Source of the DNA: Desulfogranum japonicum DSM 18378
Lineage (GTDB): Bacteria > Desulfobacterota > Desulfobulbia > Desulfobulbales > Desulfobulbaceae
Direction: 5' to 3'
Assembly: GCF_000429945.1 (NCBI RefSeq)
Contig: NZ_AUCV01000002.1
Span: 1-64,000, forward strand
Length of the DNA: 64,000 bases
The position numbers and the translations under genes were made by a program. The notes under the pieces are model-generated. The model was not told the DNA's origin. It saw nothing but the letters and a program-made list of their open reading frames with translations, and searched no databases. This document shows positions 1,277-10,186 of the stretch, piece after piece (the stretch's first letter is position 1; every line of letters begins with the position of its first letter).

Positions 1277-4200
1277 TTACTTAGAGCATTTGTTATTACA
1301 CCCTTCATTTGATAAAATCATGCAACCAATATCAAAGGGAACTGTATACCCTATCCCTATCCCAGTTGCTGCTACTGCGTAACCCGCTGCTATGCAGGCA
1401 GCGCCACCAGCATAACTACAGCCTGTGGAGCATCCTTGGTTAAGTGAATTTATATAATCAGGATTTACAGGTACATTGGAAACAGGGGTATAGTCATAGT
1501 GTCTATAATGTTCCATTCGGTCTTCCACTCCAAAAAGATTATCCCAAAATCCATCGTAGGTCTTGAGCCCCCATGGATCGATCCAATTAACAGGATTCCC
1601 CCCAACAAACCCATACAGATTAATCCCACCTTCTTCCCCAAGCGGGTCCCGATTCAGCCACCGTTCCTGAGCAGGATAATAAAACCTATATCCATAATAC
1701 ACCAGTCCCAGCCCACTGTCATATCGTTTAGTAGAAAAGGTAAAGGGTTGTTCAAAGTCTCCGCTCTGACTGACCAGTTGGCCGAAGGTATTATACCGAT
1801 ACTGAGCAACCTGTTGCTGATTTGCATCCAGCACAGCAATAATATTGCCTTTGCCATCATACAATGGGTGATAATTCTCCCCACCGCTGGCAATATTGAT
1901 CAATCCACCGATACCACCGCCAAAGTTTTTACCCCAGGTATATTCACGGAGCACTGTGTTGTTGGTATCTCTATCCTGTAGGGCAAGCCTGCCATGGCGA
2001 ACAATGTGGGTTTCATCAACCAGGTTATGGCCCTCAAACTTCTGGATTTTGGCCAGAAAGGAATCAAAGCGATAGGTGTAGACGGTTCGGTGCCGGATAT
2101 TGTCCGCATCAGTATAGCTGATTTCATGGAGCCGGTTAAAGGCATCATATTCTGCCTGGAAGCGGTATCCTTCCCTGGTATAGCCTTCAACCAGGTTGCC
2201 GTCGTAATCATAGACAAAGTCCTGGTCAGGATTGGTGGTGGCAAGCAGCTGGTTGACCATGTTAAAGGAACCTTCTGTTACCAGATCCTGCTGGGAAGGT
2301 AAGGGGAGGCCACCGGTCAGGGTTTCTGAATCTCGTTGATCCTGGTTGTTGTAGGTAAAGGTGGTTGCGTTGAATACGCCTGCAGTGCCGGTGTTTTCCA
2401 CACCTGTCAAACGATGCATGGCATCGTAGCTGTAGGTGGTAGTTGCATCGCCTGGTCTGGTCAGCGATTCAATCAGGGAAGTATTACCTTTGTACCCATA
2501 GCTGAACACTTGGCTATCGGTCTGAATCTGTTCTAAACGACCAAGTGTATCGTAGCCAACCTGCTGTGTCTGCCCTCCCTGGGGAGTAAGGCTTTGCAGA
2601 CGACCAAGCTCGTCATAGGTATAGGTGATGGTGTCGTCTTCCCAAGGGCCATCCACGGTGGCAAGCTGGGAAGCATCATTATAGGTGAGGGTAGTGGTAC
2701 CGGAACCGTCCACAATAGTGGTGAGCCGATTATAGGTGTCATAGGTAAAACTCACATCAGGGGTCTGGTCCTGATGATCAATGGTGAGCAGATTACCCAT
2801 CCTGTTATAATAATAGCGGGTATTAATCCCCCGTGCATTGGTGGATGTCTCCACCAGCCCACGGTTATTGTAGGTGTATTGCTGGGAGTGGCCATCAGCA
2901 TAGGTTTTGCTGACCAGATTCCCGGTAGTATCATACTCAAAACTGGTCTGATTGCTGTTGGGGTCAATAAAGGCTGCCAGGGTTGAGCAGGATTTGCCGT
3001 ACAGGAATCTTTCAATTCCGCCTTCATTATTAACAGCACGTTCCACCAGTTTCTGGCCGTTATAGATGTAGTCTGTAGTGATACCTGAACGTTCTGTAGA
3101 TTTGGTCAGCAGGTGCGGATAGATAAGAGAATTGTATTCATACTCCGCCTTTTTGCCATCCGGGTAGGTGACAGAAGTCAGGTGATCCAGGTTATCGTAG
3201 GTATAGCTTAGGGCCATTCCATCGATCTCACTGGAAGTCAGTCTGCCTTTTGCATCATAGCTGTATTCTGCCAGTACTTGACTATCCCGTTCAACACGGG
3301 CCAGGCGGTTATCAGAACCATAAATAAAGCTGGTGACCTGGTTGAGCGCATTAGTAATGGAGCGGATCTGGCCATTGCCATTATAGCTGGCGGTGGTTCT
3401 GTTACCTGCCAGGTCGGTATATTTGGTGACATCGTGGGTAGTGTTATACTCCAGGATGATTTCACCAAGGCCGTTGGAAACATTCACCACATCAACCCCA
3501 TTATCTGCATAGGTAAGGGTGGTGACTTGGTTGTCTGGTTCCTTGATGGTAGCCATACGGCCTTTGTCTGTATAGGTGAAGGTATAGCGACTGCCTGAGG
3601 CGTCGGATTCAGAAAGTTTTTGGCCTGTGGTGGAATCATAGGTAAACTGTCTTCGTTCCCCGTTAGGGTAGGTGATACTGCTAATTTCACGACCTTGATT
3701 GGTATTGGTGAAATAATAGAGAGTTTTGGGCACTGAGGTTGAGCTGTTGTTCAGGCTTGGCGTGTACTCCTGGTAATGCTCGGGTAAAACCCTCCAGGCA
3801 TAGGCACCTATGGCTACATAATGGAATTCCTCTTTTCCTCCATCCGGATGGGTGATGGTGAGCCTCTTATTAAAACTCATTTCAGCCCCTGGAGCTGGGT
3901 AGTTGGTCTGCGGGTAGCTGCTATTTGTATTTCGCTCCAGATTGAATTCTGTACGGCTCCCAGCATTAACCAGGGCGCTGAGATAGCCGTTACTGTCATA
4001 CTCCATCTGGGTTTTGAACCCGCCCATGTCAGTGATGGAGGTCATATACTGATCGCTGTTATAGGTGAACCTGACGTTACGGCCAAAAGGGTCGTTCACT
4101 TGCTCCAGCAGGTTTTCCTCATTGTATTGCAGGGTAGTGGTATTGCCATCCTCATCGGTCAGGCTGGTGAGCAGGTCACCGGTATAATCAAGGGTTAAAT

Positions 4201-5236
4201 GGTGACCGTATTGATCTGTTATAGCAGAGAGAAAGATGTTGCTGTTGGCAGTGACAGACTGATAATGATAGATTATTCCTGATTGAAGGGTGAGTTTGTA
4301 TTGGTTTTTCGCCTGTTGGGTGAGAGTGTCAAAACGTTGGTACGCGTATTGAAAAGTCCCATCATCATTTTTCGTGTAGGTGTCTTTTCTTCCTCCCGGC
4401 ATAATGATGGTGACATTGCCGGTGTCATCTACAGTAACATAAGAGCGATAGCCCAGGTTCCACTTGTTCCCTAATATGGAATCCGTACGCACGACGCGTT
4501 TGTTGCTGTAGTTAAGGGTCAGGTTGACTGAGGGTCCAAGAGCTGGATCGTAACGCAGAGGAAGATCCCTGACGTAGAGGTTAAGGTCCACAGGGTTTAC
4601 CGCCCATACCGGGGAACCATTACCACAGTTACAACATGCAGTATTTCCCTTTGGACATTTGTCATCATCTGGCTTGGGGCTATTGGAATCACCGACAGGA
4701 GTAGCAGAAGCATGCCCGCCCATAATTGTCGCAGCTGATTGTCGAGAAAGTATTGGCAATCCTGCTGTGATATCAGTGCTGAGTGCAATATTATTGTACT
4801 CTCCTCTGAAATTTGCCAGGGCCATGGCAGTTATGTGCTCTGTGCTGCCATCATACAGTTGCACTGTATCCTGCTCTATTTTCTGGAGCACAGTAAAGTG
4901 ACCAACTGGTTTGCCTTTCAGGTGCACGATTACCGGCAGGTCAAGTTCTGCAAGTTGCTCGGAGGTCACCTGGTAGGCTTGCAGGGGCAGGGATACTGTC
5001 TCTGCAATTCGGAGCAAATCACTGACTGACTGTCCCTTGCTGAGTTGCCCACGCATTTCCAGGACAGCTTGCGCCTGTTTTTCACTTCCCTGCAGCTTGA
5101 GTAGATGGGCAAGGGATTGCAGGCCGCAGTCATTGACAGAGGCCAGGGCATGGGAACAGGTAAAGAGAAGCAGCAGGGTAAGGCGAAGAATAGTGTGCAG
5201 CATGGTTCGTTGTGATGGTGTTTTCATATGCATCAT
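1277..5236 (-). CDS. Secreted RHS-repeat protein with N-terminal C39-like peptidase domain and variable C-terminal tip
   Basis: 1319 residues. A signal peptide (about 1-33, ending near HALA) is followed at once by a peptidase C39-like domain (about 34-160) with Cys in NDCGLQSL, His in GHFTVL and an Asp in LYDGS, consistent with a catalytic triad. Next come a DUF6531-like entry segment (NPVDLNLYVRDLPL, about 215) and a long array of YD/RHS repeats. The RHS core ends at the usual PLGEEGGINLYGFVGGNP and DPWGL. The last ~95 residues are unrelated to the core: hydrophobic, glycine-rich, with seven cysteines. The start has AGGGG nine bases upstream. By family knowledge the RHS shell encloses a C-terminal effector. 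Here the effector is small and could be membrane-active. The preceding FlgD-Ig gene ends 12 bases upstream, so the two are probably co-transcribed. Confidence 0.9.
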   Translation of the reverse strand: MMHMKTPSQRTMLHTILRLTLLLLFTCSHALASVNDCGLQSLAHLLKLQGSEKQAQAVLEMRGQLSKGQSVSDLLRIAETVSLPLQAYQVTSEQLAELDLPVIVHLKGKPVGHFTVLQKIEQDTVQLYDGSTEHITAMALANFRGEYNNIALSTDITAGLPILSRQSAATIMGGHASATPVGDSNSPKPDDDKCPKGNTACCNCGNGSPVWAVNPVDLNLYVRDLPLRYDPALGPSVNLTLNYSNKRVVRTDSILGNKWNLGYRSYVTVDDTGNVTIIMPGGRKDTYTKNDDGTFQYAYQRFDTLTQQAKNQYKLTLQSGIIYHYQSVTANSNIFLSAITDQYGHHLTLDYTGDLLTSLTDEDGNTTTLQYNEENLLEQVNDPFGRNVRFTYNSDQYMTSITDMGGFKTQMEYDSNGYLSALVNAGSRTEFNLERNTNSSYPQTNYPAPGAEMSFNKRLTITHPDGGKEEFHYVAIGAYAWRVLPEHYQEYTPSLNNSSTSVPKTLYYFTNTNQGREISSITYPNGERRQFTYDSTTGQKLSESDASGSRYTFTYTDKGRMATIKEPDNQVTTLTYADNGVDVVNVSNGLGEIILEYNTTHDVTKYTDLAGNRTTASYNGNGQIRSITNALNQVTSFIYGSDNRLARVERDSQVLAEYSYDAKGRLTSSEIDGMALSYTYDNLDHLTSVTYPDGKKAEYEYNSLIYPHLLTKSTERSGITTDYIYNGQKLVERAVNNEGGIERFLYGKSCSTLAAFIDPNSNQTSFEYDTTGNLVSKTYADGHSQQYTYNNRGLVETSTNARGINTRYYYNRMGNLLTIDHQDQTPDVSFTYDTYNRLTTIVDGSGTTTLTYNDASQLATVDGPWEDDTITYTYDELGRLQSLTPQGGQTQQVGYDTLGRLEQIQTDSQVFSYGYKGNTSLIESLTRPGDATTTYSYDAMHRLTGVENTGTAGVFNATTFTYNNQDQRDSETLTGGLPLPSQQDLVTEGSFNMVNQLLATTNPDQDFVYDYDGNLVEGYTREGYRFQAEYDAFNRLHEISYTDADNIRHRTVYTYRFDSFLAKIQKFEGHNLVDETHIVRHGRLALQDRDTNNTVLREYTWGKNFGGGIGGLINIASGGENYHPLYDGKGNIIAVLDANQQQVAQYRYNTFGQLVSQSGDFEQPFTFSTKRYDSGLGLVYYGYRFYYPAQERWLNRDPLGEEGGINLYGFVGGNPVNWIDPWGLKTYDGFWDNLFGVEDRMEHYRHYDYTPVSNVPVNPDYINSLNQGCSTGCSYAGGAACIAAGYAVAATGIGIGYTVPFDIGCMILSNEGCNNKCSK

Positions 5237-5248
5237 GACGGCGGCCCC

Positions 5249-6328
5249 TTAGCGAAAGGTAACAGGAAGCGACCAGGAGGCAGCGCGGTCGTCCGAGGTG
5301 ATCAGGTTAACGGTGAAGATATGTTTTCCGGCCGGGATTTCCGAGGCATCAAAGGTAATAGTTGCCGGGGTTTTGGTGGTCTGGTATTCCGCAGCAAACG
5401 TATGATCGATAAAGACCATGGTTTCCGAAAGATTGGTGTCGGGAATACCTTGTTTGAGGCTAACAGTGAATTTGACCTTCTTGCCGAGCGCGGCTTTATC
5501 TGTAGCATTCTTGAAGCTCACCTCAAAAGCAGGTTCTGGCAGCAATGGCTCACTGTAGAGCGCATAGTAACTGGGCTGGTTGCTGTTAGCGGCTTGCAGC
5601 GGGTACTGGGGGTAGTGCTTCTGGCTGATCTCCATAGGTCCGTCGATAACAATGGCATTGGCGGGTAAGGAAAACCCGTCAAATACCAGGTACAAGTCAT
5701 CTCGATTGGTTAAATCGATCCTTCCTGTGGTATCCTTCCCATCCCAGGAAAGTGAATGGCTGCCAGGTTCAAAGATCTGCCAGGGTGCCAACGTGATATA
5801 AATAGGTCCCCCATCAAGGATTCCGACACGTACACGGCCATACGCCTTGGTATGCAGGGTGAAATCAAGCGTTTTTTGATTGTACTGCATGTCCTGGGCA
5901 AAGACTTCTTTCCCCCAATTGTCATCGGTGGCGCTATAGGTATTGCTCCCCTTACGGGCCGTATTTGCCTCGATCACAGGAACATACACCCCGCCAGGGC
6001 AAGGCTCGCCATCATCATCCAGGCCATCCCAGGTCTGGCTGTATTCGCCTCTATCCATCTGCGTATTGGCAACCAGAGTTCGAACGATATTTCCCCTGAG
6101 ATCGCAGATAAGTACAGTTGTCTCTGCAGCATCGAGTAACTCAAAGGAGACAGTGGCAGCATCTGCAGCATCATCAGATTTAGCAGCTTGAGCAGTTCGC
6201 AGCTTCTTTTGCTTACTGGCTATAACCTGATTATCAAGACTGACCCGGGAGACGACCTCTTGCCCGGCAAATGCTGTCGGAGAGACGCCTATGGTAATGG
6301 CGAGTACGAGAAAGAAGAACTGTTTCAT
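5249..6328 (-). CDS. Exported FlgD-type Ig-like domain protein
   Basis: 359 residues with a clear signal peptide (about 1-21, cleavage after AFA). Residues ~65-115 match the FlgD Ig-like fold (DLRGNIVRTL, then WDGLDDDGEPCPGGVYVP), the module found in many secreted and C-terminally sorted proteins. A second copy with the WDGKDTTG signature follows at ~165-215, and a third Ig-like beta domain ends the protein. There is no catalytic motif, and no cysteine at the cleavage site to suggest a lipoprotein. Its ATG overlaps the stop of the ABC ATPase gene (ATGA), and the RHS gene starts 12 bases after it, so it is translationally coupled to both. It may be a periplasmic or surface scaffold for the RHS protein; that role is inferred. 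Confidence 0.75.
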   Translation of the reverse strand: MKQFFFLVLAITIGVSPTAFAGQEVVSRVSLDNQVIASKQKKLRTAQAAKSDDAADAATVSFELLDAAETTVLICDLRGNIVRTLVANTQMDRGEYSQTWDGLDDDGEPCPGGVYVPVIEANTARKGSNTYSATDDNWGKEVFAQDMQYNQKTLDFTLHTKAYGRVRVGILDGGPIYITLAPWQIFEPGSHSLSWDGKDTTGRIDLTNRDDLYLVFDGFSLPANAIVIDGPMEISQKHYPQYPLQAANSNQPSYYALYSEPLLPEPAFEVSFKNATDKAALGKKVKFTVSLKQGIPDTNLSETMVFIDHTFAAEYQTTKTPATITFDASEIPAGKHIFTVNLITSDDRAASWSLPVTFR

Positions 6329-7083
6329 AGTTGTACCTTATATGGCTGTTCTGGTGATATTGCCCGATTATGTGACAGCGTGTGCTTTTGTGTGGAAAAA
6401 AACTCCCTGGCAGGGGCCAGTGTTTTCAGTCGTCCCTGATTCAGCACTGCAACCCGATCTGCCATGTAGGCGGCTTCCCGCATATCGTGGGTGACATAGA
6501 TCGTTGTTATGCCCAGTTGATCAAGCAGGGTACGTACTTCCTGTAGGAGGGTATTTCGCAGATCAGTATCCAGTGAAGAAAATGGCTCATCCATTAACAA
6601 TATATCCGGGGCCTGAGCCAGGGCGCGTGCCAGGGCCAGGCGTTGTTGCTCCCCTCCGGAGAGTTGGCCTGGATATTTGTCCGGGTACGGGAGATGTACC
6701 AGGTTGAGCAGGTGCATGATTTTTTCTTGCCGTTGTCTGCGTTTCACGGATTTGGGCAGGACAAAAGCAAGGTGTTGCCTGGCGGTCATGTGGGGCCAGA
6801 GCGCTAGGTCCTGAAAAACCATGGCGATCTTTCGTTTATATGGAGGAACCAATTTGTTTGCTGCACTGACAGTGGCACCACCCATTTGGATGGTGCCTGA
6901 CTCAGGTTGCTCAAATCCGGCGATGAGGCGAAGGGTGGTAGTCTTGCCGCAACCTGAAGGGCCGATGAGTGCCAATTTCTCTTTTGGAGCCAGGCTCAAC
7001 GAAAGTTTTTCCACAATCCCGAAGCAGATATTACTCAAGCAGATTGCAGGCACAGGTCTTTTTAAATGGATAAGCGAGGTCAT
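6325..7083 (-). CDS. ABC transporter ATP-binding protein (Fe3+/spermidine-type importer family)
   Basis: 252 residues from the ATG at 7083, which overlaps the permease stop codon (ATGA). The frame is open further upstream, but that extension lies inside the permease gene and shows no homology-like sequence. Visible motifs are Walker A GPSGCGKT, the Q-loop in AMVFQDLALWPHM, the signature LSGGEQQR, Walker B ILLMDEPF and the switch His in YVTHDM. The C-terminal regulatory beta domain of longer PotA/FbpC relatives is nearly absent. It energises the two-domain permease encoded just upstream and is coupled by a second ATGA overlap to the FlgD-Ig gene. Confidence 0.92.
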   Translation of the reverse strand: MTSLIHLKRPVPAICLSNICFGIVEKLSLSLAPKEKLALIGPSGCGKTTTLRLIAGFEQPESGTIQMGGATVSAANKLVPPYKRKIAMVFQDLALWPHMTARQHLAFVLPKSVKRRQRQEKIMHLLNLVHLPYPDKYPGQLSGGEQQRLALARALAQAPDILLMDEPFSSLDTDLRNTLLQEVRTLLDQLGITTIYVTHDMREAAYMADRVAVLNQGRLKTLAPAREFFSTQKHTLSHNRAISPEQPYKVQL

Positions 7084-8681
7084 GCGGCACCTCTGGCAGT
7101 GGTAAGAAAAAGCATGGTGGAAATACAGAGTGTGGTGAACATGAGTATCAGGGAGAGGGCGGCCACCAAGGAGCCGGCTCCGTAATGCATAAGCGTATAT
7201 ATTTTTAAAGAAGCAGTAGATAGCCCAGGTGGAATGACCAGCAGGGTCGCCCCCAGTTCTCCCATGGAAAAAATAAAAACAATGCACCAGCAGGTGCAGA
7301 GCGGTTTCAGCAACAGGGGGAGTTCAATCCTGGTTAATCGTCTCCACAGGGAAGATTCACAGAGCAGAGCAGCCTCAAGCTGATGGGGATGCACCTGCTT
7401 CAGCCCTGCAGACAGAATGCGAACGGCAAATGGTATAAAACGACCCATACAGGCTAACAGAAGTATGGCTGTTGTGGTGTATATCATCTGTGTTGCCGAT
7501 GTATTCCAGGTATAAATCAAGCCGATACCAAACAGCGTGGCTGGAAAGGCAAAGGGCAGATAGGTTACAAAGCCCTGTACAGAAGTGTTTCGCGACGACT
7601 CAACATGCCTGGCAACCAGATAGGCCAGGATAGTAGTAGCAGTTGCTGCCAGGGACGCTGTGAGGAGGCTGGCTCCGATTTCCTTATAAGAAGTTTTCAA
7701 GGCCATGAGATAATTTGACCAGCTACCAGCCTGTTGCACGAGGGCAGCAACGGGCAGCAATACTGTAAGGCAAAGTATCAACAGGCAGAAGATTGCTGCT
7801 GCTGTTTTGACAATCAGCCGGGAGTGATATTCACTGTGCTGTCTGGCATGGCTGATGGCAACGAATTCTTTCCCTGCAAGCATCCATTGCTGCCAACCAA
7901 GCAGGAGGACTGCAAGCAGGATGGTTGGAGCACAAAGGGCTGCTGCTCCGGCTTCGTCGTAGAAGGCGGAAAATCGTGCCATGATTTCAACCGGAAAGGT
8001 TGATATCCGAAACATGGAGCTGACGCCATAATTAAAAAAACTGAAGATGAAAACAAACACTCCACCACTGATGCAATAGGGTTTGAGCAGCGGCAGGGTA
8101 ATCTTTAAGAGAGCGGCCAGGGGATGTCGCGACAAAACTGCAGCTTCTTCCATGGAGTGTTGCATTGTCTGCAGGCCGGTTATCACAGGCAGGATAACCA
8201 GCGGCAGGTAACATAACCCCAGCACCAGGGCAACGCATGGTACTGTGTACAACTCAAAAGGGAGCATGCAGCAGGGCAGGTGGGTTGCAAAAAATCCCTT
8301 TTCCCCCCAGAGTGCAATCCAGGCAAGGCCATGCACATGGGGTGGAATAAACAGGGGCACAAGATAGAGCATTCGGCACAACGTATTGCCTGGAAAGGAT
8401 ATGCGGGAGACAGCCAGAGCAAAAGGAATCCCCAACACACATGCGACCAGGGTCGCACCGCAGGCTATGCCACCACTACGTGCCAGGAGAATCCAGGTAC
8501 GCAGATCGCCGAAGACTGCCTGGTAATGGCCAAACGACAACTGGCCTTCCTGGATCAGGCTCTTGACCAGCATAATCCCCGGCGGCAGCAAGGCTACAAC
8601 CGAAAACAGGAGTATACCTGCAATGGTCAGGGGCGTTGGCAGGCCTGGTATTCTGCCCTGTCTGTGACTCGCAAATGCCAT
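7080..8681 (-). CDS. ABC importer permease, two fused transmembrane domains (FbpB/ThiP type)
   Basis: 533 residues with about twelve hydrophobic segments in two similar halves, the layout of iron(III)/thiamine-type permeases where both membrane domains lie on one chain. Each half carries an EAA-like coupling loop: around 'MEEAAVLSRHPLAALLKITLPLL' in the first half and 'HQLEAALLCESSLWRRLTRIELPLL' in the second. These contact the ATPase. The start lies four bases after the binding-protein stop, and the stop overlaps the ATPase start. The substrate cannot be read from the permease; see the binding-protein entry. Confidence 0.9.
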   Translation of the reverse strand: MAFASHRQGRIPGLPTPLTIAGILLFSVVALLPPGIMLVKSLIQEGQLSFGHYQAVFGDLRTWILLARSGGIACGATLVACVLGIPFALAVSRISFPGNTLCRMLYLVPLFIPPHVHGLAWIALWGEKGFFATHLPCCMLPFELYTVPCVALVLGLCYLPLVILPVITGLQTMQHSMEEAAVLSRHPLAALLKITLPLLKPYCISGGVFVFIFSFFNYGVSSMFRISTFPVEIMARFSAFYDEAGAAALCAPTILLAVLLLGWQQWMLAGKEFVAISHARQHSEYHSRLIVKTAAAIFCLLILCLTVLLPVAALVQQAGSWSNYLMALKTSYKEIGASLLTASLAATATTILAYLVARHVESSRNTSVQGFVTYLPFAFPATLFGIGLIYTWNTSATQMIYTTTAILLLACMGRFIPFAVRILSAGLKQVHPHQLEAALLCESSLWRRLTRIELPLLLKPLCTCWCIVFIFSMGELGATLLVIPPGLSTASLKIYTLMHYGAGSLVAALSLILMFTTLCISTMLFLTTARGAA

Positions 8682-8685
8682 CGTT

Positions 8686-9693
8686 TCAGCGCATAAAAAG
8701 TTTCTGCACTGCCTGTACAGATTCTTCCATCATGTCTGTGGTTCTGCCAAAATCCACCTGCGCAGCCTTGATGTCTTCCTGTCGGAATTGTCCTTTGGGC
8801 ACGGTTATGCCAGGACGCAGGGGAATCTGGGCAGACTCGGAACTGCAGAGTTTGCTTTCAACCTCTCTACTGAGCATATAGTCGATGAGCTGTTTAGCTT
8901 CAACAGCGTGGGGTGCTCCCTTGATCATGGCAATGGTATTGGGGATAAGCAGTGTCCCAGAACCGTCCTGGTCAGGAAGGATAGGTTTGATTGGTTTTCC
9001 ATTCAGAACACCAACATTCACATCATCGGTATCTGTGATACCCCATGGCGCAGTCCCCTCGGCCACCATATCGCGGACCACGGAGTTACCGTCAACGATA
9101 CGCACTTCATTGGCGATGAGATCCTGGAGAAACTGCTCAGCAGGTGCAGCGCCCCACATATCGAACAGTGTTGCCACATGGGTGGAGGTGGTTCCAAACA
9201 TGGGGTTGGCCATGACTGGTTTGCCTTTCCACTTGGTATCCACCAGATCATGAATGGATGTCGGGTACTGGTCTGGCTGCAGGATATTCGTGTTCACTAC
9301 CAGAACCCTGGCGCGGGCTGCAAAGCCTGCCCAATAGTGATCAGGATCTTGAAATTGAGCGGGAATATCATCTGCAGAAGGGGACGCATAGGGTGCCAGA
9401 ACTCCTTCACGCTGCAGTTTGATGGTTCGCATGATCTCGTTATTCCAGAACACGTCGCATTGAGGGTGTTTTTTTTCAGCAAGCAGGCGATTAACCAGGC
9501 CTGTGGTTTTTACAGCTTCAATGTCATAGACAGCTTTTACGGTAATACCGGTCTGTTGCTCAAATTCTTTCAGTATGGGTTCTGCAAAGATCTGGTCCAT
9601 GGCAGTGTAGACTACCACTTGCTTATCTTTTGCATGGGCAACGGTGGCCAGGAACAAGGCCAGTATGCATAAGGTGTATTGGATCGTTTTCAT
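8686..9693 (-). CDS. ABC importer periplasmic substrate-binding protein (Fe3+-type family, substrate uncertain)
   Basis: 335 residues from the ATG at 9693, giving a clean signal peptide (MKTIQYTLCILALFLATVAHA). The longer open frame upstream overlaps the preceding gene and is not needed. The mature N-terminus VVVYTAMDQIFAEPIL and the later WGITDTDDVNVGVLNGKP are typical of the FbpA/AfuA-like SBP cluster. However, the adjacent Tyr-Tyr pair that binds iron in classical FbpA is not visible in the expected C-terminal half. Iron is therefore only the default guess; another metal, an oxyanion or an organic ligand is possible. The gene lies four bases after the exported ChrB-domain gene, suggesting a shared substrate or stress. 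Confidence 0.88.
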   Translation of the reverse strand: MKTIQYTLCILALFLATVAHAKDKQVVVYTAMDQIFAEPILKEFEQQTGITVKAVYDIEAVKTTGLVNRLLAEKKHPQCDVFWNNEIMRTIKLQREGVLAPYASPSADDIPAQFQDPDHYWAGFAARARVLVVNTNILQPDQYPTSIHDLVDTKWKGKPVMANPMFGTTSTHVATLFDMWGAAPAEQFLQDLIANEVRIVDGNSVVRDMVAEGTAPWGITDTDDVNVGVLNGKPIKPILPDQDGSGTLLIPNTIAMIKGAPHAVEAKQLIDYMLSREVESKLCSSESAQIPLRPGITVPKGQFRQEDIKAAQVDFGRTTDMMEESVQAVQKLFMR

Positions 9694-9697
9694 TGCA

Positions 9698-10186
9698 TTA
9701 TTTTGTAGTTGTTTGTGTTGTAAAAGTATCCAAATATTGGAAGCAGCGTTGGTAGCTTTCTTCATTGTCAGCGCTTTCGTGGAATAGCTTTCGCAAGTCT
9801 GTTTCCAGTGTTCTGGCATCCTGTGTATTTTGGCCAAAAAAATTGAGTTCAATCAACCGAACCAATTTGCCTATCTCTATGGATTTCTGGTCTTGTATAT
9901 TGTATTTCGCAAGAATAGATTCATAGGTCGAACGTTTGTGGTCCCGTCGTAGTTCAGCAACCGGCAGATCAAAAGGGGTTGCCTGCTTTGGCGGTAATTG
10001 ATTATCTTCCAGGAATATGAATTCTGCTGTGGTATCCACCTTCCTGGCAATGAGCCAGGCAGCGGCACAGCGGTCGACTTCCACAGCTTTCCCGGTTGCC
10101 CAGGTACCGGCGAGCCCTTCACTGGTGAGAAGGGACGCCAGCAACAGGCCAGGCAGGCAAAAGATACATGGTTTCCAACAATTCAT
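9698..10186 (-). CDS. Exported ChrB C-terminal-domain protein
   Basis: 162 residues: a signal peptide (about 1-26, ending SEGLA) and then a single domain resembling the C-terminal part of chromate-resistance protein ChrB. The recognisable path is 'VDRCAAAWLIARKVDTTAEF', then 'PFDLPVAELRRDHKRSTYE', then an acidic/aromatic helical end. Cytoplasmic ChrB is a chromate-responsive regulator with a longer N-terminus. This version lacks that part and appears to be periplasmic, which is unusual. It starts 14 bases after the end of the giant beta-helix gene and ends four bases before the binding-protein gene, so it is firmly part of the operon. It may sense or bind the transported ion in the periplasm; that is inference. 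Confidence 0.78.
   Translation of the reverse strand: MNCWKPCIFCLPGLLLASLLTSEGLAGTWATGKAVEVDRCAAAWLIARKVDTTAEFIFLEDNQLPPKQATPFDLPVAELRRDHKRSTYESILAKYNIQDQKSIEIGKLVRLIELNFFGQNTQDARTLETDLRKLFHESADNEESYQRCFQYLDTFTTQTTTK

Follow-up and report, generated by a model that had tools for sequence, protein, structure and literature searches.

A putatively exported ChrB_C-domain protein linked to an FbpA-type ABC importer in Desulfogranum japonicum and other genomes

Ferric-binding proteins of the FbpA/FutA type belong to operons that encode a solute-binding protein (SBP), a fused permease, and an ATPase, the same set as in the locus described here. ChrB of Ochrobactrum tritici TnOtChr is a chromate-responsive regulator in which the substitutions R180A, R187A, and H229A each abolish the response to chromate, and H258A results in high uninduced expression and insoluble protein (PMC3817168). 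Both kinds of protein meet in Desulfogranum japonicum DSM 18378, in the first 64,000 nucleotides of contig NZ_AUCV01000002.1 (the window), where a gene for a ChrB_C-domain protein with an export-type start precedes the genes of an FbpA-type transporter. We give an even chance to the explanation that these genes encode an ABC importer that depends on a binding protein of the FbpA type for capture and has a periplasmic partner derived from ChrB_C. The importer is different from ferric-iron importers of the known type, and the ligand class proposed below is deduced from the sequence.

The genes form a run on the minus strand from 10186 to 1277 (Table 1), in which successive genes are separated by 4 and 4 bases, two overlaps, and 12 bases, with a beta-helix gene closely ahead. 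A preliminary description of this DNA had placed the ChrB-type and binding-protein genes at 8686-10186, four bases apart; both genes were recovered there, and the spacing (bases 9694-9697) was reproduced from their start and stop positions. The mechanical start of the ATPase ORF is a GTG at 7287, and the ATG at 7083 was taken instead. In the product of the last gene, the C39-peptidase-like domain is N-terminal, and the start looks signal-like by eye.

Table 1. Features of the minus-strand gene run, listed from its upstream end
Feature	Coordinates	Strand	Remarks
Large beta-helix/TSP3 repeat protein, 2186 aa	10201-16761	-	Ends 14 bases before the ChrB_C gene; Pfam on the last 986 aa only
Exported (predicted) ChrB_C-domain protein, 162 aa	9698-10186	-	PF09828 103.9 bits (cut-off 25), from residue 29 onward; ATG at 10186, stop at 9698; exported tree branch
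Probable signal peptide of the ChrB_C protein, residues 1-26	10109-10186	-	Hydropathy 2.32 at residue 8; cleavage site by eye
FbpA-fold SBP (predicted), 335 aa	8686-9693	-	ATG at 9693, stop at 8686; signal peptide by eye
TDTDD motif, SBP residues 220-224	9022-9036	-	Stands where FbpA/FutA have their tyrosine pair
Fused (double-length) ABC permease, 533 aa	7080-8681	-	PF00528 in two stretches; PhnU2-like, far below cut-off
ABC ATPase	6325-7083	-	PF00005 125.8 bits; start (ATG at 7083) overlaps with the end of the permease gene
FlgD_ig-domain protein	5249-6328	-	PF13860; overlaps the ATPase stop
C39-peptidase-like and RHS-repeat protein, last gene of the run	1277-5236	-	PF03412, PF05593

PF09828 is the sole family above its cut-off in the ChrB_C protein, which is without the N-terminal ChrB half. 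All 19 aligned exported proteins, from which L055, L060, L064, and L073 were omitted as frameshifted, truncated, or extended, match the ChrB_C family at E <= 1 (best 7.4e-36), while a PDB sequence search with the window protein returned one match at chance level. The signal peptide that had been claimed for this domain is supported as a putative one by hydropathy and by eye: the best 12-residue value within the first 40 residues is 2.32, and the 19 exported proteins (the window's included) range from 1.84 to 3.33, compared with maxima of at most 1.55 in 12 short and at most 1.82 in 32 full-length canonical ChrB proteins, a thin margin. An exported-type copy from Thiodictyon reaches only 1.47 when read from the annotated start, a position that could be wrong. 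The model of the window protein has a pLDDT of 87.7, with mean values below 70 in each of the first three blocks of ten residues. As judged from its sequence, the protein appears to lack two features of the ChrB chromate sensor, namely the N-terminal DNA-binding half and the cytoplasmic location.

To locate the residues required for chromate sensing, a constant offset of 148 was applied, and R180, R187, and H229 then fall at positions 32, 39, and 81. The mapping was checked on 38 canonical rows, where the three columns hold R in 37/38, R in 38/38, and H in 38/38, respectively, and the H258 column holds H in 23/38. Among the exported proteins (the residue table holds distinct sequences only, 19 exported and 38 canonical), the R180 place is W in 16 and G in 3 and is never R, the R187 place is basic throughout (K in 15, R in 4), and the H229 place is R in 17/19 and never H. 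The chromate-sensor residues thus seem not to be kept in the exported form, except that the R187 place stays basic. Position 36 is acidic (E36 in the window protein) in 19/19 exported vs. 0/38 canonical rows, and position 113 is E in 19/19 exported vs. D in 38/38 canonical rows; D38 and D73 are common to all 57. In a ChrB_C tree, a quick one built on few columns, the exported proteins make up one side of a branch with an SH-aLRT value of 99 (21 rows vs. 51 canonical rows).

The fold of the ChrB_C model gave a lead rather than a result. The 34 best rows of the VIA search are DHH-type enzymes, by title in most cases and by our own assignment in about five, and include RecJ, CDC45, NrN, family II pyrophosphatase, and NanoRNase; proteins of other kinds start at Z 4.0. 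The top matches are 8a8k (Z 8.1, rmsd 3.8, 127 residues) and 7d62 (Z 7.7), obtained with one predicted model and close to the Z of 7 to 8 at which models without a clear match typically peak. Foldseek gave an E-value of 0.075 at best. A DHH relationship was not supported by sequence profiles of modest depth (Neff <5), since hhalign gave a probability of at most 4.7% against DHH proteins. The position that we presume to be DHH motif IV is L111 in the window protein and D in 17/19 exported proteins.

A scan of the contig collection with the window ChrB_C protein as a single sequence gave no matches. With a three-member ChrB_C profile, whose members are all linked to the transporter so that linked relatives are favored, 22 named loci were found, and transporter genes lie beside the exported ChrB_C gene in 19 of them: 17 with an SBP and/or permease gene, and two (L069 and L071) with an ATPase gene directly before ChrB_C. 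No transporter gene is visible in the remaining three: L061, which retains other usual neighbors; L063, which looks solitary; and L064, the sequence of which opens with the ChrB_C gene. The loci carry titles including Desulfobacterales, Desulfosarcina, Desulfatibacillum, Thiomargarita, and Scalindua, and some are from MAGs titled Acidobacteria, Wallbacteria, BRC1, and Heimdallarchaeota. The cluster in the Heimdallarchaeota-titled MAG (L066) is on a contig of just 4453 bases, which may be a binning error. The ChrB_C gene is located ahead of the SBP gene in the window, L053, L054, and L055, and behind the ATPase gene in most others. The annotated plasmid pTs485 encodes FlgD_ig, PD40, SBP, permease, ATPase, and ChrB. 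A search of other genomes for the two linked genes had been called for, and they are linked far more often than chance would allow; the pairing is genuine, conserved, and broader than the window alone had shown. It does not appear in the titles and abstract openings of the papers (PMC7039435 among them) retrieved by literature searches for the pairing or for ChrB with DHH, which leaves room for an earlier description in print.

Exported ChrB_C is present in 4/395 genomes of the inferred phylum of the window, with scores of at least 139.6 bits (the next match has 78.6). The SBP is present in 26/395 of these genomes (E 1e-30), including all four with exported ChrB_C, although in G360 it is on a different contig, at the contig end. 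The ChrB_C profile had no match in the 22 other SBP-bearing genomes, and a PF09828 search of 16 of those 22 gave 0/16, indicating that the transporter can exist without ChrB_C. SBPs linked to exported ChrB_C do not cluster as one group in the SBP tree, where they require six changes, a pattern still compatible with a single origin.

The SBP clade extends well beyond the exported ChrB_C proteins. At E 1e-50, relatives were found in 163/294 genomes of Planctomycetota (sample of G494) and 25/297 of Acidobacteriota (sample of G478), and in 0/398 of Pseudomonadota, the last sample (G493) being one without a known matching genome and so showing little; all three phyla, like that of the window, are assigned from the record titles of named relatives. 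In this wider clade, the usual exported neighbor is not ChrB_C but a protein like LamG or 3-keto-disaccharide hydrolase, which is encoded in 10/16 regions of one set (four of them exported-ChrB_C regions; Pfam was run on three of the ten) and in 27/60 regions of a second set, two of which overlap. The Pedobacter plasmid pA27BH1 has chrB, chrA, a short ChrB_C gene, DUF1259, a LamG-like gene, SBP, permease, and ATPase genes together, and the same cluster is present in a Sphingopyxis macrogoltabida plasmid (two records).

Fifty-six SBP-bearing genomes of Acidobacteriota and Planctomycetota (phyla by title), chosen by SBP score only, contain 30 ChrB_C copies not identified as exported, 11 of which (in 10 genomes) are within 10 kb of an SBP relative and 19 elsewhere. 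Random placement in genomes taken to be 4.5 Mb long with 1.2 SBPs each would put about 0.17 copies near an SBP; this binomial expectation was computed with 31 rows, two of which are pieces of one gene. The nine nearby copies examined by residues and tree, all but the G1381 copy and one of the two from G1066, are canonical. When SBP rows linked to ChrB_C or ChrA are considered together, the tree requires seven changes, at least five of them forced by starred branches. On these counts, the association of ChrB_C with the SBP is either of repeated origin or ancient with frequent loss. ChrA was rejected as a constant partner of exported ChrB_C: it is present in 5/23 genomes or records with the exported form and in 3/60 SBP regions, one of these being a weak partial match, and was not found in the genome of the window. 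In relatives of the window's organism (L002-L006), canonical ChrB and short ChrB_C genes lie beside a gene that resembles MFS by eye.

The other neighbors suggest a cell-surface setting and point to no ligand. Homologs of the window FlgD_ig protein were found in eight other loci (the same eight by cluster analysis and BLAST), PD40 proteins in five, DUF1573 proteins in three, and RHS proteins like that of the window in L057, L059, and L065; FlgD_ig and PD40 are also encoded together in pTs485, L113, and L247. A PD40 propeller and FlgD_ig recur in order ahead of the SBP in L113 (4334-7443, with a DUF1573 protein in the same order), L062 (1289-3347), and L074 (7420-9531). Large secreted-type repeat proteins (beta-helix; PKD/NHL/dockerin) are encoded next to the transporter genes in L054 and L067. 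A cytochrome c554-like protein adjoins the SBP in L267 (8964-10055), and its BLAST cluster is present in 10/60 regions. A Reg_prop propeller gene is next after the ATPase gene in Picosynechococcus pAQ7, L104, and L109; such propellers after the ATPase in L155 (15244-16296), L104 (8650-9786), and L109 (2680-3699) have an N-terminal hydrophobic stretch and mark a subset of the wider clade. BLAST clusters of the neighbors over 60 regions gave no clear hint of a ligand.

The SBP had been likened to FbpA relatives, and its sequence matches 6g7n by phmmer with an E-value of 1.9e-23. Its model (pLDDT 92.4) aligns with 1y4t in VIA at Z 36.4, rmsd 2.1, over 303 residues, and the top matches are ferric-binding proteins, so that the protein is predicted to have the FbpA fold. 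The absence of an adjacent tyrosine pair, also noted earlier, is borne out by sequence alignments. In four of five printed phmmer alignments, the tyrosine pair of 6g7n, 7li0, 1y4t, and 2pt1 falls over D223-D224 of the window SBP; the fifth is AfuA (4r72), itself without the pair. Asp-Asp is found at this place in 96/102 collected rows, with one gap and five distant rows having YA. At 97% identity the 96 reduce to 92, since three pairs are the same protein entered twice and a fourth pair is near-identical. Across the 96 rows, D33, D57, E59, K62, W83, R129, N203, D221, D223, and D224 are invariant, and the charged ones are mostly acidic, K62 and R129 being basic. Presumably H9, Y195, and Y196 of FbpA are replaced by D33, D223, and D224 (numbering assumed, alignment by eye), and we suppose that D28 of MctA might correspond to D33; no paper carrying the word MctA was found in our literature search.

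Such an acid-rich site argues against ferric iron and, because the invariant charged residues are mostly acidic, against a bare oxyanion, and a cationic ligand would fit better. We propose that what the SBP takes is a divalent metal or metal complex, or else a small molecule with an amine group, at a candidate site formed by the carboxylates D33, D221, D223, and D224 with D57, E59, and K62. In the periplasm, exported ChrB_C may bind this ligand or prepare it for transfer, either beforehand or while the transfer takes place, and import would be the work of the permease and ATPase. In other phyla, the partner would be a canonical ChrB controlling the transporter, with the exported LamG-like protein often in the periplasmic place. 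The earlier suggestion of a substrate other than ferric iron is in line with the Asp-Asp pair, while its oxyanion part loses ground with the acidic site and with an exported ChrB_C protein without the R180 and H229 residues. An importer of a chromate-, molybdate-, or vanadate-like oxyanion, with exported ChrB_C as the periplasmic catcher, is in our view quite improbable, given that the R180 place is W or G in all 19 exported members and that molybdate, tungstate, and sulfate permease models were matched far under their cut-offs. A metal or oxyanion theme is nevertheless favored by the occurrence of the same SBP clade in chromate clusters on plasmids of Bacteroidota and Alphaproteobacteria as well as in genomes of Acidobacteriota, and by its proximity to ChrB_C genes in Planctomycetota (the phyla of the genomes by title). 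The oxyanion reading is also helped by two places of the exported domain that are basic (K or R at R187 in 19/19, R at H229 in 17/19).

FbpA-fold relatives without the tyrosine pair, namely AfuA, the PLP-binding P5PA, and PhnS, bind phosphorylated or phosphonate ligands. Exported ChrB_C might be imagined as a processing enzyme, a phosphoesterase of the DHH kind acting on a phosphorylated nutrient, with the SBP taking up the trimmed product. The DHH-type rows at the head of the VIA list and the acidic position 36 with D38 and D73 speak for this unlikely alternative; the Foldseek and profile-profile values, a top Z near that of models without a clear match, and L111 in place of the motif IV aspartate speak against it. 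A broader speculation, which we consider unlikely, is that ChrB_C as a whole is a shrunken DHH-type phosphoesterase domain, the pocket of which became the chromate sensor in cytoplasmic ChrB and a metal-dependent processing enzyme fronting an importer in the exported branch. R180 and R187 would then lie around motif I, and H229 around motif III, of the former phosphate pocket. The acidic cluster E36, D38, D73, and E113 would give rise to the periplasmic enzyme, which would serve a widespread ABC importer that is also encoded inside chromate-resistance clusters. An importer of iron, either ferrous or in a complex, in which carboxylates stand in for the tyrosines and ChrB_C is a passenger, would agree with the FbpA/FutA fold at Z 36, a plasmid annotation labeling the permease "iron," and the fact that many hosts are anaerobes, where iron is ferrous. 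The repeated linkage of ChrB_C in two arrangements is hard to explain with a passenger, and we judge this reading to be as improbable as the oxyanion one.

An SBP clade that occurs in more than half of the Planctomycetota genomes sampled (phylum by title) gains a genetic context and a testable site, and ChrB_C domains prove to be more than chromate regulators, with partner genes and residues identified for testing. If the ligand is found, it could give names to many proteins whose present label is iron-type or plain "extracellular solute-binding protein," and it would explain why chromate clusters contain an ABC importer.

Among the known systems, the ferric-binding proteins FbpA/FutA (1y4t, 2pt2, 6g7n) have the same fold and the same length as the window SBP, with 19-25% identity in structural alignments. 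The window SBP differs from them in an extra conserved YDxEAxKTxG segment and in having Asp-Asp at 223-224, where adjacent tyrosine iron ligands would be expected. The 2-aminoethylphosphonate system PhnS2/PhnU2/PhnT2 resembles the window system in its fused permease and in that its SBP is among the best NCBIfam matches, but the scores against the equivalog cut-offs of TIGR03261, TIGR03262, and TIGR03265 (98.5 of 392.75, 86.8 of 593.25, and 230.8 of 457.7 bits) are all far below, and this system was rejected for SBP, permease, and ATPase alike. The thiamine system (TIGR01254, 37.6 of 93.4 bits, under the subfamily score) and the molybdate/tungstate permeases (TIGR02141, 99.6 of 182.6 bits; NF040839, 59.8 of 340 bits) were also rejected. 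ChrB of O. tritici TnOtChr shares the C-terminal PF09828 domain with the window protein, which differs in being without the N-terminal part, in its predicted export, and in the replaced R180 and H229 places. The chr clusters of Pedobacter pA27BH1 and Sphingopyxis have an SBP of the same clade (43.2% and 40.4% identity), a permease, an ATPase, and ChrB_C; unlike the window run, they also carry ChrA and the LamG-like protein, and the short ChrB_C proteins encoded there start without a signal-like stretch and retain T-R and D-R, as in canonical members.
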